Assembly: GCF_030812215.1 (NCBI RefSeq)
Contig: NZ_JAUSSG010000005.1
Location: 186,001 to 250,000 of the forward strand
Source: Variovorax boronicumulans
GTDB taxonomy: Bacteria; Pseudomonadota; Gammaproteobacteria; Burkholderiales; Burkholderiaceae_C
Direction: 5' to 3'
Length of the DNA stretch: 64,000 nucleotides
Notes under the pieces: model-generated
The model's input: the letters and a program-made list of their open reading frames with translations, nothing else
Databases searched by the model: none
Told to the model about the DNA's origin: nothing
Shown: piece after piece, positions 22,708 to 33,773 of the stretch
Position numbering within the stretch: the first letter of the stretch is position 1
How the letters are laid out: every line of letters begins with the position of its first letter
Made by a program: the position numbers and the translations under genes

Positions 22708-24159
22708 TCAGGTGCGTTCACCGGGCGGCGGCGCGGGCACCCACTCGTCGCCGAACAGCTCGGGCTCGCTGTAGGCCTCGAGGTTCGCGAAGTGATGGTC
22801 GAAATCCTCGCGATAGAACAGGCTCGCGATGCCGCTCGCGAGGCGCTTGGCACCGTCGCTGATCGCGGGAATGTCGCCCGACACCGTGCCATGCGACAGG
22901 GCAGCCGGGTAGCAGAAGCAATGGATGCGTTCGAGCCCCGGACATTCGCCCGCCACACGCTCCTGGAATTCGAAGACCGGCCCGAGGTCGGGCGAATCGG
23001 CCAGCTCCTGGTCTTCGTCGCCGGGCGGGGGCACGAAGCGGTCTCCCCACGTCCGGATGTGGGAGGCGATGCCGTCGAATTCGGGGCGGTTCGGCCAATC
23101 GACCTTGAAGCCGGTCGAGACGATCAGGAAGTCGAATTCGAAATCGCCCTTGGGGGTCGTCACACGCATCGCATCGCCCTCGGGCGCGACCGACAGGATC
23201 GGGCAGCCGAAGTTGAAGAACGCATTCGGAAAAGCCGACACCCGCAGCGTGCTGCCGTGCGGTGGCGGCACGTTCGCGACGTTGATGTAGTGGCGGATGC
23301 GCCACTTGCGTTCGTCCGACAGGTCGAAGTGCCCCTGCGTGAGGCCCGGCACGCCGGCGCCCTTGCCCTTGTTGACGCGCGGCAGGTCGGGGCGGCGGAT
23401 CAAAAGTTCGACGCTGTGCGCGCCCGCCTCCAGCGCGGTGGCCGCGCTGTCCATCGCCGACGAGCCCGCGCCGACCACGCCGACGCGCAGGCCCGCGAGC
23501 TGCCCGTAGTCCATGTCGTCGGACGAATGCGCCCACTGCGAACGCGGCAGCGCATTCACGAACGCCGGAACCGCCGGGCCGCCTAGACCGTCGCGGCCCG
23601 TGGCCAGCACGACGCGGCGCGCCAGCACGCTGTGGGCACCGGCCGGCGTGCGCAGGTCGAGCCGCACTGCCGTGCCATCGGGCAGCGGGTGGATGCCGGT
23701 GACCACGGTGTCGTTGCGCACGTCCACGTTCATCACGCGGCGGTACCAGCAGAGGTAGTCCATCCACTGCAGGCGCGGGATCTTGTCCATCGCCGCCCAT
23801 GCTTCGCGCCCGAACTGCGCTTCGAACCAGGCACGGAAGGTGAGCGACGGCAGGCCCAGCGCGGGGCCGGTGAGTTCCTTGGGCGAGCGCAGCGTCTCCA
23901 TGCGCGCGGTGGTGGCCCAGGGGCCTTCCTTGCCCGCAGGGGACCGGTCGAAGACCACGGCGCGGATGCCCTGCTGCGCGAGCGCCACCGAGGCCGCGAG
24001 CCCCGCCTGCCCGCCGCCGATGACGGCCACGTCGAGCATCGCCTCGCCCTCCTTCTGCCGCACGGGCATCCATTGGCGGCCGGGGAAGCCGAGGTAGTCG
24101 AGGTCCTGGGCGAGCCGCGCCTCGAGCGCGGCGAGGGATGAAACGGAATCTGATGTCAT
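22708..24159 (-). CDS. FAD/NAD(P)-dependent monooxygenase-like oxidoreductase
   Basis: 483 residues. The FAD-binding fingerprint DVAVIGGGQAGLAASVAL (glycines around 48-53) is preceded by about 40 residues of helix, and a second Rossmann loop, LRVGVVGAGSSAMDSAATALE, follows for NAD(P)H. The layout resembles flavin-containing or Baeyer-Villiger-type monooxygenases. A single FxGxxxHxxxW fingerprint is not evident, although SQWAHSSDDMDYGQLAGLRVGVVG may take that place. It is the first gene of the redox trio and divergent from the glycogen operon. Its substrate is probably a small organic molecule, and the adjacent peroxidase pair may deal with hydroperoxide side products; both points are inference. 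Confidence 0.85.
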   Translation of the reverse strand: MTSDSVSSLAALEARLAQDLDYLGFPGRQWMPVRQKEGEAMLDVAVIGGGQAGLAASVALAQQGIRAVVFDRSPAGKEGPWATTARMETLRSPKELTGPALGLPSLTFRAWFEAQFGREAWAAMDKIPRLQWMDYLCWYRRVMNVDVRNDTVVTGIHPLPDGTAVRLDLRTPAGAHSVLARRVVLATGRDGLGGPAVPAFVNALPRSQWAHSSDDMDYGQLAGLRVGVVGAGSSAMDSAATALEAGAHSVELLIRRPDLPRVNKGKGAGVPGLTQGHFDLSDERKWRIRHYINVANVPPPHGSTLRVSAFPNAFFNFGCPILSVAPEGDAMRVTTPKGDFEFDFLIVSTGFKVDWPNRPEFDGIASHIRTWGDRFVPPPGDEDQELADSPDLGPVFEFQERVAGECPGLERIHCFCYPAALSHGTVSGDIPAISDGAKRLASGIASLFYREDFDHHFANLEAYSEPELFGDEWVPAPPPGERT

Positions 24160-24290
24160 TTAAGCAAGCCGGAAACAGCGCCCAGTGTAGAAAGCTTCTC
24201 CGCCTGTCGAATCGCGCCCGGTCGCCGGCAAACGCGTATGACTGGCCCGGATTTCGCATGCCACAATGATTTCAGACCACAGGGGCAGGC

Positions 24291-25955
24291 ATGGGCAGCA
24301 GCAACAGCGAATGGTGGCGCGGCGCGGTGATCTACCAGATCTACCCGCGCAGCTTCATGGACAGCAATGGCGATGGCATCGGCGACCTGCCCGGCATCAC
24401 GGCCCGGCTCGACCATGTGGCCAGCCTCGGAGTCGATGCGGTCTGGGTCTCGCCCTTCTTCCGCTCGCCGATGAAGGACTTCGGCTACGACGTGTCCGAC
24501 TACCGCGCGGTCGATCCGCTCTTCGGCACGCTCGCCGACTTCGACGCGATGCTCGCGCGCATGCATGCGCTGGGGCTCAAGCTCATCATCGACCAGGTGC
24601 TCTCGCACACCTCCGACCAGCACGCCTGGTTCGCCGAAAGCCGCAGCTCGCGCGACAACCCCAAGGCCGACTGGTATGTCTGGGCCGACCCCAGGCCCGA
24701 CGGCACGCCGCCCACCAACTGGCTCTCGGTCTTCGGCGGCTCGGCCTGGCAGTGGGATTCGCGCCGCAGGCAGTACTACCTGCACAGCTTTCTCACCGAA
24801 CAGCCGGACCTCAATTTCCACTGCACCGAAGTGCAGGACGCGCTGCTCGGCGAGGTGCGCTTCTGGTGCGAGCGCGGCGTGGACGGCTTCCGCTTCGACG
24901 CCTGCAACCACCAGTTCCACGACGCCCTGCTGCGCGACAACCCTCCGGCTTCGCTCGCGTCGATCGACGAGGTCAGCACGGTGCGCGCCGACAACCCCTA
25001 TGCGATGCAGCAGCACCTGTACGACAAGAGCCAGCAGGAGAACCTGGTGTTCCTCGAACGCCTGCGCCAGTTGCTCGACGGCTATGGCGCGGTCGCGCTG
25101 GGCGAGGTCGGCGACGAGAACGCGCCGCCCGTCATGGCGCAGTACACCGAACTCGGCAAGCGCCTGCACCTGGCCTACAGCTTCAGCCTGCTGACCGCGG
25201 ACCACAGCGCCAGGCACCTGCGCCACCAGGTGGAGGCACTCGACCAGGCGCTGGCGCCCACCGGCGGCTGGGGCTGCTGGGCGGTGTCGAACCACGACGT
25301 GCCGCGCGTCTCCACGCGCTGGAGCGACGGCAAGGCGCCCGACACGCGGCGCGACCGGCTCTGGCTCACCTTGCTGCTCGCGTTGCGCGGCAGCGCCAGC
25401 ATCTACCAGGGCGAGGAGCTCGGCCTGCCCGAAGCCGAGGTGCCCTTCGAGCTGTTGCAAGACCCCTACGGCCGCACCTTCTGGCCCGAGTTCAAGGGCC
25501 GCGACGGCTGCCGCACGCCGATTCCGTGGCAAGCAGATGCGCCGCACGGCGGCTTCACCACCGGCACGCCGTGGCTGCCCGTGTACGGCGCGCACCTGCC
25601 GCTGGCCGTCGACAACCAGGCCGACGACACGGGCTCGATGCTGGCCTTCAGCCGTGCGCTGCTGCACTGGCGCCGCACGCAGCCGCTGCTGCGCACCGGC
25701 GGCATCGTGTTCTTCGATGCGCCCGAGCCCGTGCTGTGGTTCGAGCGGCGCGACGGCAACCGATCGCTGCAGGCGATCTTCAACATGGGGAGCGAGCCCT
25801 TGTCGATCCCGCTGCGCGAGGCGCTGGTGCCGCTGCAAGGCCATCCGCTCGCTGCGACCGCCAGCGTGCAGGGCCATGGCGAAAGGCGCATGCTGGCACT
25901 GGCGCCCTACGGCGTCTTTTTCGGAACACCCGCCAACGAAGAAGGACACAGCTGA
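24291..25955 (+). CDS. GH13 alpha-glucosidase / oligosaccharide hydrolase
   Basis: 554 residues without signal peptide. Glycoside hydrolase family 13 blocks are present: the start [22 protein letters not shown], the nucleophile Asp in [11 protein letters not shown], the acid/base Glu in ALGEVGDE, and the transition-state Asp in SNHDVPR. The start and the [11 protein letters not shown] block are those of alpha-1,4/1,6-glucosidases that cut the non-reducing end of short maltodextrins, isomaltose or sucrose-like sugars. It heads the glycogen operon, with only 5 bp to glgB. A role in trimming oligosaccharides released by GlgX and GlgP is inferred; transglucosylation is also possible. Confidence 0.9.
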
Positions 25956-25960
25956 CCGCT

Positions 25961-28135
25961 ATGCCACCGAAGTCCCTGCCTGCCTCCGAAGTCCGCGCGC
26001 TGATGCGCGCCGAACACGGCGATCCTTTTGCCGTGCTCGGACCGCACGAAACGCGCGAGGGGCTGGAAGTGCGCGCACTGATGCCCGGCGCCCAAAGCGT
26101 GGCGGTGATGCATTCGCGCACCGGCTGGCCGCTCGCGATGCTCACGCGGCAGGAGGGCTCCGACCTGTTCAGCGGACTGGTGCCGGCGGCGGAAGCGCGC
26201 CTGGGCTATTCGTTCCAGGTCGATTGGGGCTCGCACACCTCGCGACTCGAAGATCCCTACCGCTTTGCATTCGTGCTCGGCGAAACCGACGTGTGGCTGC
26301 TGGCCGAGGGCACGCACCTGCGGCCCTGGGAGCGGCTGGGTGCGCACCTGCGCGAGATCGATGGCGTGAAGGGCGTGGCCTTCGTGGTCTGGGCGCCGAA
26401 CGCGCGACGGGTCTCGGTGGTCGGCGACTTCAACAACTGGGACGGCCGGCGCCACATGATGCGGCTGCGCCGCGAATGCGGCGTGTGGGAAATCTTCGCG
26501 CCGCACGTGGCGACCGGCGACAGCTACGCGTTCGAGATTCTTTCCGCGCAGGGCGAGGTGCTGCGCAAGGCCGATCCGTTCGCGTTCTCTTCGCGGCTGC
26601 GGCCCGACACCGCCTGCGTGGTGGCGCCGCTGCCGGCCGCGGTGAAGATGCCCGAAGGCCGCGCCAAGGCCAATGAACGCCACGCGCCGATCAGCATTTA
26701 TGAAGTGCACCTGGGCTCGTGGCGCCGCAAGAACAATGGCCACGAGTGGCTCGACTACCGCGAGCTGGCCGACACGCTCGTGCCCTACGCGCGCGACATG
26801 GGCTTCACGCACATCGAGCTGTTGCCGATCAGCGAGCACCCCTTCGACGGCTCGTGGGGTTACCAGCCGATCGGGCTTTATGCGCCGACCTCGCGCTTCG
26901 GAACACCCGGCGACTTTCGCCATTTCGTGGAGGCTGCACATGCGGCCGGGCTGGGGGTGATTCTTGACTGGGTGCCCGCGCACTTTCCGACCGATGCGCA
27001 CGGCCTGGGCAACTTCGACGGCACTGCGCTGTACGAGTACGCCGATCCGCGCGAAGGTTTCCACAACGACTGGCAGACGCTGATCTTCAACTTCGCGCGC
27101 ACGGAGGTGCGCAACTACCTGGTCGGCAATGCGCTGTATTGGCTGGAACGCTACGGCGTCGACGGCCTGCGCGTGGATGCGGTGGCGTCGATGCTGTACC
27201 GCGACTACAGCCGCAAGGCCGGCGAGTGGGTGCCGAATGCGCAGGGCGGACGCGAGAACCTGGAGGCCATCGATTTCCTTCGCCGCATGAACCGTGTGGT
27301 GGGCATCGAGCGGCCCGGCGCGGTGACGCTGGCCGAGGAGTCGACGAGCTTTCCGGGCGTGACGCGGCCGCCGGAAAACGGCGGGCTGGGCTTTCACTAC
27401 AAGTGGAACATGGGCTGGATGAACGACACGCTCGCCTATGCGGGCACCGACCCGGTCTACCGCAAGCACCACCACCAGCAGATCACCTTCGGGCTGATGT
27501 ACGCGCACACCGAGAACTTCGTGCTGCCGCTCTCGCACGATGAAGTGGTGCATGGCAAGGGCTCGATGATCGGACGGATGCCCGGGGACGAGTGGCAGAA
27601 GTTCGCGGGGCTGCGCAACCTGTACGGCTATCTCTGGGGGTATCCGGGGAAGAAGTTGTTGTTCATGGGAGGCGAGTTCGCTCAGGTCGCCGAGTGGAAT
27701 GCGGATCGCAGCCTGGACTGGCACCTGCTGGAGCATGCCCCGCACCAGGGAGTGCGGCGGCTGGTGCGCGATTTGAACAACGTGTACCGGCACTTTCCTG
27801 CGTTGCATGAGCTGGACAACGACGGCGGCGGGTTCGAGTGGATCGTGCATGACGATGCGGATCAGTCGGTGTTTGCGTTTGTTCGCCGGGCGCGGGACGG
27901 GGCGTTCGTTGTCGTCGTCTGCAACTTCACGCCGTTGCCTCGGCATGCGTATCGGCTGGGGGTTCCTGTTGCGGGGGCTTACCGGGAGATCATCAATACG
28001 GATGGGGCTGTGTATGGGGGGAGTGGTGTAGGGAACGGGATCGTCGAGAGTTCGCCGGGTGCCTGGCATGGGAAGGCGGATTCTGTTTCTGTCAGCGTGC
28101 CGCCGCTTGCTACTGTGATGTGGGTGTTGGTTTGA
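25961..28135 (+). CDS. glgB: 1,4-alpha-glucan branching enzyme
   Basis: 724 residues, close to the usual length of GlgB, which makes alpha-1,6 branches in glycogen. The order is an N-terminal beta domain ([11 protein letters not shown]), the CBM48-like [23 protein letters not shown], the GH13 barrel with nucleophile in [14 protein letters not shown], acid/base in [10 protein letters not shown] and [13 protein letters not shown], and a C-terminal beta domain. The ATG at 25961 follows the GH13 stop by 5 bp. From about 27600 to the stop the codons shift to G- and T-rich forms on the plus strand, which is unlike the 5' two thirds; a giant palindrome follows. Confidence 0.96.
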
Positions 28136-28160
28136 TGAGTCTGAGGTTGTTTTTCTTTCG

Positions 28161-28775
28161 GAGGCCGGGTCTCGCCCCGGCGGGCGAGCTACTTTCTTTT
28201 GCTTCGCCAAAAGAAAGTAGCCAAAGAAAAGGCGACCCTGCTGTCTGCGTCCCTTCGCTTCGCTACGGGCAACCTGCGGTGCTCACGTTTCGCGGGGTCT
28301 CGCCCAAACTCGCTTCGCTCAAACAAGGGCGAGCCCTGATCCGCGAAACGCTCCGCTCCTCGGCGCATACAGAAGGGCTTGGAGACCAGCCACGCCATCG
28401 CTGCGCTCGGCGTTCAAGACATTGCGGGCCATCGCTTTGCTCGGCCCGGAACGGCACAACCAACGGCATCCACCAGCCATCACAACCAATTCAAGGCGGA
28501 CACGCGGAGCGTGTCCGCCCTTCGCGCCGAGCGAAGCAATGGCCCGTTTGGCTCCCCCTCCCCTCTGGCTGCGCCGAGGAGCGCAGCGTTTCGCGGATCA
28601 GGGCTCGCAGCTGTTTGAGCGAAGCGAGTTCTGCGAGACCCCGCGAAACGCGAGCACCGCAGGTTGCCCGCAGCGAAGCGGAGGGTCGCAGACAGTGGGG
28701 TCGCCTTTCTTTTGCCTACCTTTCTTTGGCGAAGCAAAGAAAAGTAGGTCGCCTGCCGGGGCGAGACCCGGCCTC
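28161..28775. repeat. Giant imperfect palindrome (two ~215-bp inverted arms) between glgB and glgX
   Basis: This fills most of the 670-bp gene-free stretch 28136-28805. The left arm (28161 to about 28377) reads as the reverse complement of the right arm (about 28561-28775), with roughly nine in ten bases matching. Inside the spacer a second inverted pair (28427-28445 with 28526-28544) continues the symmetry, and GGCGGACACGC-GGA-GCGTGTCCGCC (28495-28519) is a perfect 11-bp hairpin. Each arm also has its own internal hairpin: 28188-28200 pairs with 28209-28221 (13 bp, perfect), and the right arm has a slightly imperfect counterpart around 28715-28748. The frames within it are not protein-like. 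It resembles a non-autonomous, MITE-like genus-wide repeat; no transposase is present. Confidence 0.85.
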
Positions 28776-28805
28776 GGGGAAAAAACCAATCCAGGGGCAA
28801 CAAGA

Positions 28806-30890
<2,085 letters not shown>

Positions 30891-30969
30891 AAGCCATGCG
30901 CGCGGCGCAGTGCTAGCCTAGCTACAGAAACTCTGACGACGCATTCCAACGAACGAACGGAGACACAGG

Positions 30970-32277
<1,308 letters not shown>

Positions 32278-32294
32278 GGCCGCGATCGCGAACG

Positions 32295-33773
32295 ATGCGA
32301 ATCCTCCAGGTCAGCGCCGAACTCTTTCCCCTCCTCAAGACCGGCGGCCTGGCGGATGTCGCCGGCGCCCTGCCCCTCGCGCTCATGGCCGCGGGGCAGG
32401 ACACGCGGGTGCTGCTGCCGGGCTTTCCGGCCATCGTGGCCGGCGTGCGCGACCTGGTGCCGGTGGCCGAACTCACCGCACCCTGGGGCAGCGAGCGCTT
32501 CGCGCTGCGCGCGGGGCACATCGCCATCGACGGCGCGCCGCCGATACCCGCCTACGTGATCGATGCGCCGGCGCTCTACGACCGACCCGGCAATCCCTAC
32601 GAAGACGCGACGCGCCAGCCCTACGGCGACAACCACCGGCGCTTCGCGCTGCTCGGCTGGGCGGCGGCGCGGCTCGCCCAAGGGCTGGACCCGGCGTGGC
32701 GGCCCGAGGTCGTGCATGCGCACGACTGGCACGCGGGCCTGGCGCCGGCTTACCTGCACTTCGCGCGCGAAGCCGGGTCGACGCGCGCCGGCAGCGTGTT
32801 CACCGTGCACAACCTCGCCTACCAGGGCATTTCCGCACCCTGGAACTTCGCCGACCTCGGCCTGCCGGCGCCTGCCTTCCACATGAACGGGCTCGAATAC
32901 CACGGACAGGTGTCGTTCATGAAGGCCGGCCTGTACTTCGCCGACCGGCTCACCACCGTAAGCCCGACCTACGCGCGCGAAATCCAGACACCCGAGCAGG
33001 GCTGCGGCCTCGACGGCCTGCTGCGCCAGCGCAGCGGTGTGCTCACCGGCATCCTCAACGCGGTGGACGACAAGGTCTGGAGCCCGGCCGCCGACACGGC
33101 GCTGGTGCAGGGCTATCACACGCCCGAAGGCCGCCACATGGCCGGCAAGGCGCGCTGCAAGGCGGTGCTGCAACATCAGCTCGGATTGGCCGAGCGGCCC
33201 GATGCGCCGCTGTTCATCCTGGTGAGCCGGCTCACCGAACAGAAGGGCCTGCACCTCGTGCTCGGCGGCATCGATGCGCTGCTTGCGCAGGGCGGCCAGC
33301 TCGCGCTGCTGGGCAGCGGCGAGGCATGGCTCGAAGAGGCTTTTCGCCAGCGCGCGGCGGCAGCGCCGCAATCGGTCAGCGTCACCATCGGCTACAACGA
33401 AACGCTCGCGCACCAGCTCTTCGGCGCCGGCGACGTGACGCTGGTGCCTTCGCTCTTCGAGCCCTGCGGCCTCACGCAGATGTACGGCCTGAAATACGGC
33501 AGCCTGCCGCTGGTGCGCCGCGTGGGCGGGCTGGCCGACACGGTGGTCGACAGCACGCTGGAAGACATGGCGAGCGGCGAGGCCACCGGCTTCGTGTTCG
33601 ACCGCTTCGACGCAGCCGACTACGAACGCGCGCTGCGCCGTGCCTTCGCCCTCTACGAGCGTGCGCCCGACTGGCGCCGCGTGCGCGGCAACGCCATGCG
33701 GCGTCCGGCCGATTGGGCCACCGCCGCCGCGCAATACATCGACGTCTACCACCAGGCATCGGGCGCCGCCTGA
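32295..33773 (+). CDS. glgA: Glycogen synthase
   Basis: 492 residues of a GT5 retaining glucosyltransferase that transfers glucose from ADP-glucose to glycogen chains. The N-terminal [13 protein letters not shown] supplies the ADP-binding lysine. [14 protein letters not shown] and [12 protein letters not shown] are the acceptor-side blocks. The C-terminal [32 protein letters not shown] is the donor site with the conserved E-x7-E type signature. It starts 17 bp after glgC and is followed by glgP after 46 bp, within the same operon. Confidence 0.96.

Follow-up and report, generated by a model that had tools for sequence, protein, structure and literature searches.

Between glgB and glgX of Variovorax boronicumulans lies a palindrome of 615 bp that separates two genes which abut in most of the relatives examined, and the locus raises the question of what this structure is and how it came to be there. 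It lies in a 64,000-nucleotide stretch of contig NZ_JAUSSG010000005.1 (hereafter the window), whose positions are used throughout.

The palindrome is a dispersed, non-coding element of Variovorax at 28161–28775, flanked by the glgB stop codon (28133–28135) and a glgX start at 28806. The open reading frames within it are mechanical only, and no promoter-like site was found in 27900–29100. The original prediction, made from the letters of this DNA alone, described a giant palindrome with a further inverted pair, a perfect 11-bp hairpin in the spacer and arms that fold on themselves, and all of these are present: the outer arm pair (28147–28303/28633–28789) is 87% complementary, the inner pair (28307–28412/28525–28630) 82% complementary, the spacer hairpin lies at 28495–28519 as first read, and the stem 28188–28201/28208–28221 is perfect over 14 bp. 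The sharp ends at 28161 and 28775 are common to the window copy and four other full-length copies in the genome, all of which share the end sequences GAGGCCGGG and CCCGGCCTC; outside these ends only a T-rich stretch on the left and an A-rich stretch on the right recur.

The left arm (28161–28376) is of type P, with TCTCGCCC/GGGCGAG, and the right arm (28560–28775), inverted, is of type Q, with TCTCGCAG/CTGCGAG; the inner ends of both are approximate. At the left end a GC hairpin, H1 (28171–28188), is followed by a T-rich run. Pairing and alignment then define a pseudoknot whose outward strand is the minus strand, with stem 1 at 28188–28221 (28188–28201 with 28208–28221, loop 28202–28207) and, at 28222–28235, the mirror tract A2 (28222–28230, the predicted third strand on the outward strand) and a second-helix strand (28232–28235) that pairs with loop positions 28204–28207. 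Further in, the junction motif CTGCGNTNCTCG, taken from arms of other lineages, occurs as CTGCGGTGCTCA at 28274–28285 and again as CTCCGCTCCTCG at 28351–28362, on either side of hairpin H4 (28286–28350; outer stem 28286–28295/28341–28350), the stems of which covary between elements. In the right arm H4 lies at 28587–28650, and on the plus strand, here the outward one, a second-helix strand (28701–28704) and a predicted pyrimidine third strand (28706–28713), together spanning 28701–28713, precede stem 1 of the right pseudoknot (28715–28748; 28715–28728 with 28735–28748, loop 28729–28734).

At least five full-length copies, including that in the window, were counted in the source genome (G000) when 40 of 50 candidates were scored, and others there are broken or truncated at the end of a contig. 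Scoring of five candidates in each genome matched the element in at least 56 of 61 genomes of the genus, the source genome included, and in at least 12 of 40 other genomes of the order. The reading of the insert between glgB and glgX as a dispersed, transposase-free repeat is therefore sound; that it is genus-wide is right in so far as it is dispersed through Variovorax, but it is not confined to the genus and the family extends beyond it. Named records with matches (at least 112 stretches) are mainly of Variovorax, and also of Xenophilus, Xylophilus, Diaphorobacter and Acidovorax. A search with the end motifs in ten genomes of the genus placed most end pairs 0.5–0.8 kb apart and a few 1.5–2 kb apart. 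A strict arm motif was found in 23 of 369 genomes of the class, the source genome included, and in 17 of 398 genomes drawn across the phylum, all 17 from the window's own class; these counts are lower bounds, as one genome found by similarity (G085) has no strict match. Inverted arm pairs about 360–545 bp apart recur in Pasteurella (L328) and in four further genomes (G207, G225, G182 and G135), and most other far stretches show a single arm or none within the stretches examined. An origin from a phage or plasmid was considered and rejected, in that phages gave no match, viral contigs gave no match to the core pattern, and only 13 of 72,556 plasmid records matched, including a 2.48-Mb Variovorax replicon on which the match covers most of the element.

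What the copies share is clearest at the outer part of the arms. In other lineages an arm starts with a T strand, a 6-nt loop, a purine strand A1, a linker and a second purine tract, A2, and A2 is the mirror image of the purine strand of the stem: CAAAAGAAA in the stem goes with CAAAGAAAA in A2, and the reverse, and shorter mirror versions (3,3 and 2,4) also obey. Judged from the T strand, this rule holds in 150 of the 153 fully parsed genus arms (of 160 arms, five were unparsed and two parsed ones had no readable T strand or A1). The class-wide pattern allowed mirror and same-register A2 tracts equally; among 49 distinct listed sequences from 22 other genomes there were 43 exact mirrors, five with A2 one A longer and one irregular, and 22 further distinct sequences from 13 genomes comprised 20 mirrors, one that is one A longer and one without G, with no same-register A2 in either set. 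The class- and phylum-wide string counts cover distinct strings listed outside the genus, from the first places of each genome.

Just behind A2 stand four bases that can pair with the last four of the loop, in at least nine different sequences among lineages, counted by eye. For alignment we used the 41 of 44 sequences that are exactly 52 nt long; since the filters selected for complementarity in the inner eight stem pairs, the test set was made up of eight others, half of them in the second helix and half in the outer stem. Read outward, these free pairs are paired in 96.0% of cases against 65.5% in shuffled sequences, and their covariation of 0.748 compares with 0.181 for shuffles (reached in 0 of 500) and at most 0.098 for slid controls; related sequences can exceed shuffles without structure, whereas the slid controls keep the relatedness. 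The second helix is 95.1% paired, and two-sided change occurs at all eight free pairs, which 18 of 500 shuffles also reach. The whole structure is 97.8% paired outward, with a covariation of 0.446 against 0.137 shuffled, and 96.3% paired inward, with a covariation of 0.411. The second helix is absent from L392, which also lacks the mirror, and from a short form in Paraburkholderia (L330, 1500–1560) that has the stem and mirror tract; this short form occurs at 37–40 places on each of several replicons. Comparison thus shows the outer part of each arm to fit a conserved H-type pseudoknot, best read on the outward strand. Folded singly as RNA, the outward strands of the two arms do modestly better than shuffles (z of −2.0 and −3.0).

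On the outward strand A2 is represented by its complement, a run of pyrimidines that lies in the loop of the pseudoknot and is parallel to the purine strand of the stem. The best register has U.A-U or C.G-C in 99.7% of cells, against 86% for an antiparallel control, and 40 of the 41 sequences match at seven of seven positions (shuffled mean 20.1, largest 30 in 2000); six of the eight triple positions are fixed by selection, and the information sits in the two free ones, where stem pair and third strand change together. By this comparison the pyrimidine-rich loop matches the stem for about eight consecutive predicted base triples, of which the C.G-C triples need a protonated C. In this reading each arm seems to hold a knot-like fold that is old and conserved, part of it predicted to be three-stranded. 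A purine-motif DNA triplex had been entertained for the mirror tract and was replaced by this pyrimidine-motif triple on the outward strand.

The distribution of G.U wobble pairs bears on which strand, and which nucleic acid, is at work. Within the genus there are 124 wobble cells read outward against 25 inward, or 105 against 21 over distinct arms and 10 against 4 by pair positions, and the 41-sequence set gives 13 against 2, the cells and rows coming from related sequences. Because wobble is concentrated on the outward strand, we favour outward RNA as the working form, and infer a functional RNA. An argument that the arms are kept as DNA, from the near absence of inward G.T, was dropped, as wobble is present when the other strand is counted. 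The fold might nevertheless work as single-stranded DNA, in a cruciform or a replication intermediate, for example as the substrate of a nuclease or an HUH enzyme: the ends of IS200/IS605-type transposons are DNA hairpins, wobble pairs are few overall (149 of 7327 cells, both strands counted), and mirror tracts suit a DNA triplex equally well. DNA does not predict the bias of wobble to one strand, however, and it is on the wobble-rich strand that the loop is a pyrimidine third strand, so that we regard a DNA-level fold as unlikely, if still to be taken seriously.

The sites of the element show how it behaves over time. We followed the tail of glgB in 28 genomes, of which 17 have a gap of 2–40 bp to glgX and nine carry the element, in three cases with a contig end inside it; in one more (G032) an 82-bp gap holds the terminal hairpin only, which we refer to as a scar. 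At the same junction G035 (L096) has a different insert of 593 bp, the end of which we take to resemble a YoeB-type toxin. The suggestion that the window copy was a recent insertion does not agree with these data, as one well-supported clade of eight in the glgB tree consists entirely of genomes with the element or the scar. On that tree the element label needs three changes, at least two of them forced by well-supported branches, and gain or loss has therefore happened more than once. Of 30 loci for a second site (L004), 19 are occupied, four have hairpin scars, six are empty and one holds another insert. A convergent site (L024) is occupied in 9 of 30, and here G059 (L129, 2075–2580) has a different insert with inverted, similar-looking ends where sister genomes carry the element. 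At a fourth site (L002) there is a scar in G051, and G029, G025 and G003 are empty. Empty and filled sites thus occur at four loci, with scars at three of the four. No target-site duplication was seen by eye at the four sites with empty relatives, where the flanks differ.

Over 61 gene ends, the median distance from a stop codon to the start of the element behind it is 27 nt, and the genes flanking 53 classed elements are tandem in 43 cases, convergent in nine and divergent in one, against a background of 323, 67 and 62. Genes were called by a custom GC-frame script, start-codon distances were excluded because open frames distort them, and the count leaves out 22 elements classed as far, three classed as unclear and those with less than 500 bp of flank. 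The copies are thus shown by these comparisons to lie mostly just behind stop codons, to occupy a given site in some relatives and not in others, and to be lost leaving hairpin scars. Such a position would also suit a 3′-end element useful to the host, whose arms end, shield or process transcripts and whose fold acts in mRNA stability or termination and not in movement. In its favour are the short distance from stop codons, the single element between divergent genes, and H1 with its T-rich run, which is terminator-like and points inward in both arms. However, shuffled sequence gives a mean of 1.4 (sd 1.2) terminator-like matches, which the two here do not clearly exceed, and the T-run has interruptions, so that we rejected an intrinsic terminator; sites are empty in relatives, and a deficit between divergent genes is also expected from selection against promoter damage. 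A host function at the 3′ end is in our estimation possible and rather doubtful, on a par with the single-stranded DNA fold.

The copies show no inheritance specific to their sites. For arms of the same type in different genomes, the likeness at the same site exceeds that at different sites by a mean of only 0.0015, with 50 of 114 genome pairs positive, whereas within one genome arms from different sites resemble each other more (median 0.949 in 32 pairs, against 0.922). Since sharing a site adds no likeness and sharing a genome does, copies are replaced or homogenised within genomes, and they do not track vertical descent at a site. Gene conversion among copies, instead of movement, can also account for this, as a fresh insertion at a preferred site and conversion between copies look the same in the site comparison.

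Some larger forms of the arm pair carry genes. In one other lineage (G098) there are five head-to-head arm pairs whose pseudoknot units are separated by about 1 kb or more (L345, L354, L368, L407 and L413), each bracketing a different single reading frame at a separate locus; the four frames scanned of the five encode one methyltransferase-domain protein, one macro-domain protein and two proteins without a Pfam match. As the same arm pairs bracket a gene in this lineage, the Variovorax form would be an empty cassette. No effector gene was recognised beside the window copy, the neighbours of which are glycogen genes. In G219 (L379, 1500–2435) an arm is followed by a 237-aa frame that starts with CxxC...HVIPEF and matches no Pfam family; beside it is a frame that we presume to be glutaredoxin-like.

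Insertion sequences are found in some copies. In G033 (L058, 1470–2435; also L059) an IS110-family transposase gene is nested in the spacer of two copies, that at L058 matching DEDD_Tnp_IS110 and Transposase_20, and in G014 (L361, L362 and L363) IS481-like and IS30-like genes lie at or inside three long copies, the IS30-like label being our presumption together with a sub-threshold rve match. Other elements may preferentially insert into the palindrome. When a parent transposon was sought by its ends in ten genomes, the opened long copies held such IS110-, IS481- and IS30-like genes, which look nested and not parental. IS110 was rejected as the mobiliser: in G033 both IS110-like copies occupy the spacer, and short copies of the element, that of the window among them, are too small to contain such a gene, so that these genes look like guests. 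No circular intermediate, mobilising enzyme or new insertion was observed.

A giant BIME, with REP units moved by a RAYT (Y1 transposase), is a further candidate, as inverted hairpin units in pairs are reminiscent of BIMEs. The element likewise consists of structured units in inverted pairs behind genes, and 34 of 37 genomes of the genus have one Y1_Tnp (RAYT-like) match, e.g. at L120, 2043–2738. REP units are 20–40 nt long, whereas those of the element are about 215 nt, and the RAYT is not linked to it: the arm motif is present at none of 14 RAYT loci, and no palindrome of this kind was seen beside the RAYT in the four loci checked for repeats. Co-occurrence is also against it, as G035 and G064 have 10 and 17 element matches and no Y1_Tnp match, though either may have had a RAYT in the past, while G024, G026 and G036 have Y1_Tnp and no element match (five candidates scored each). 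With both linkage and co-occurrence opposed, we judge a RAYT to be a very unlikely mobiliser and a giant BIME a very unlikely identity.

The remaining question about structure is whether the long hairpin itself is what has been kept. The enormous hairpin expected of a transcript is given by a folding program (−516.6 kcal/mol for 28136–28804, 20 shuffles giving −274.6, sd 6.9), but the conserved part is mostly structure local to each arm. We collected 147 arm pairs, 137 with recognisable ends and 95 of them distinct, and used the 80 with clean ends. In these, Watson-Crick pairing inside the arm is 97, 94, 92 and 93% for H1, H2, H4 inner and H4 outer, against 88, 82, 70 and 71% when the same columns are paired arm against arm; H5 has the opposite pattern (81% local, 86% arm to arm), and a trial closing stem is paired in 1275 of 1440 cells. 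The close match between the arms on which the original prediction drew is only moderately true, since arms of the same element (median 0.858) are less alike than arms of different elements (0.883). Arms fall into types P, Q and R, which differ in hairpin H4, and 64 of 68 typed elements join unlike types; like-arm elements number 4 of 68 against 22.9 expected, or 21.0 expected within genomes, which is no more than suggestive of an avoidance of like arms, as elements of one genome are often near copies. These figures argue against the gene conversion between the two arms that had been invoked. Arms of other lineages differ in sequence and follow the same plan: in 38 of them CTGCGNTNCTCG comes after the pseudoknot, then a variable hairpin H4, then a second CTGCGNTNCTCG (the set having been selected by two copies of that motif with up to two mismatches each, and the split being misplaced in some rows), and at L370 the H4 stems of the two arms are entirely different in sequence and each self-complementary. 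A second hairpin repeat, of the CCCTCTCCC...GGGAGAGGG kind, is found in the spacers of L007 (about 1785–1890), L373 and L370. As same-element arms match less than arms of different elements while H1, H2 and H4 stay 92–97% paired, one long hairpin kept for its own sake is not supported, and the explanation shifts to a pair of conserved folded ends. Although long palindromes provoke template-switch and conversion repair and the hairpin scars show that sequence has been deleted there, the least likely of the explanations considered is a passive one, in which template switching or arm-to-arm conversion keeps the palindrome and nothing recognises it. This reading fits neither the lower likeness nor the unlike types of paired arms, and it leaves the covariation of the second helix unexplained; template switching yields inverted and not mirror repeats.

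MITEs and intergenic repeats of the ERIC, Correia and YPAL type are dispersed and non-coding, with inverted ends and no transposase inside. The element is like them in being dispersed and intergenic, with inverted ends and no internal transposase, and as a short, non-coding sequence with terminal inverted repeats it agrees with that part of the definition of a MITE; it differs in the pseudoknot and predicted triple strand of each arm, the unlike arm types and the lack of a visible target duplication. Triple-helix pseudoknots in which a pyrimidine loop lies against an A-U-rich stem are known from telomerase RNA and from TnpB/Cas12 guide scaffolds, and the arm has the same arrangement, although without an Rfam match. 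Rfam 15 gave no match above threshold in window positions 24000–33000 and eight matches in 14 other loci at E up to 1, all below the gathering score; the HEARO model (the OMEGA guide RNA of IS200/IS605) matched neither that region nor the 14 loci. The structured ends that bracket single unrelated genes in G098 recall integron gene cassettes, although in G098 each gene has a pair of inverted arms and the loci are separate.

In the literature searched we found no description of the repeat family or its motif, apart from two that are possibly related. The Betaproteobacterial repeat element (BRE) is an intergenic repeat of about 90 bp, partly in tandem arrays, in Bordetella and Comamonadaceae, with a copy number that varies between strains (PMC3110155); the present element is likewise an intergenic repeat, and would differ from it in length and in the lack of such arrays. 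Bp1_684, a Burkholderia sRNA, is named among the candidates tested by RT-PCR and in the table of validated sRNAs, with a trans-acting role suggested, not a mobile one (PMC3521395). Its model, RF02421, overlaps the Paraburkholderia short form at L330 with 32.2 bits, below the gathering score of 44, at a place that lacks the second helix, and it is not listed for 24000–33000 of the window or for 13 other loci.

Taken together, we give about even weight to a non-autonomous, dispersed mobile element made of two structured arms, head-to-head, with ends that are probably recognised at the level of RNA. The arms would be the ends of a mobile unit, recognised through their pseudoknot fold, probably as RNA, by an enzyme encoded elsewhere; insertions behind stop codons would survive as no gene is broken, and the giant hairpin would be a by-product of two arms facing each other. 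A more specific proposal, which we put forward tentatively and rate only slightly above the two leading alternatives, is that a new class of mobile gene cassette, present in Gammaproteobacteria including Burkholderiales, has these arm pairs as its ends: the outward RNA, as a triple-helix pseudoknot, would guide or recruit an enzyme acting in trans, and the cassettes would be mostly empty in Variovorax and hold one gene each in the other lineage. The original prediction was that the element could uncouple the expression of glgB and glgX or be cut by RNase III; at this locus an effect on glgBX expression is likely. If the structural reading is true, a widespread repeat not listed in Rfam, with a predicted triple-helix pseudoknot, would be either a new mobile class with RNA-structured ends or a new 3′-end RNA device, and the conserved fold with its predicted three-stranded stretch would make it a new kind of repeat. 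It would offer a testable handle on the long-standing problem of the spread of palindromic repeats that have no transposase, and on a possible role of RNA structure at the ends of an element in guiding its movement.
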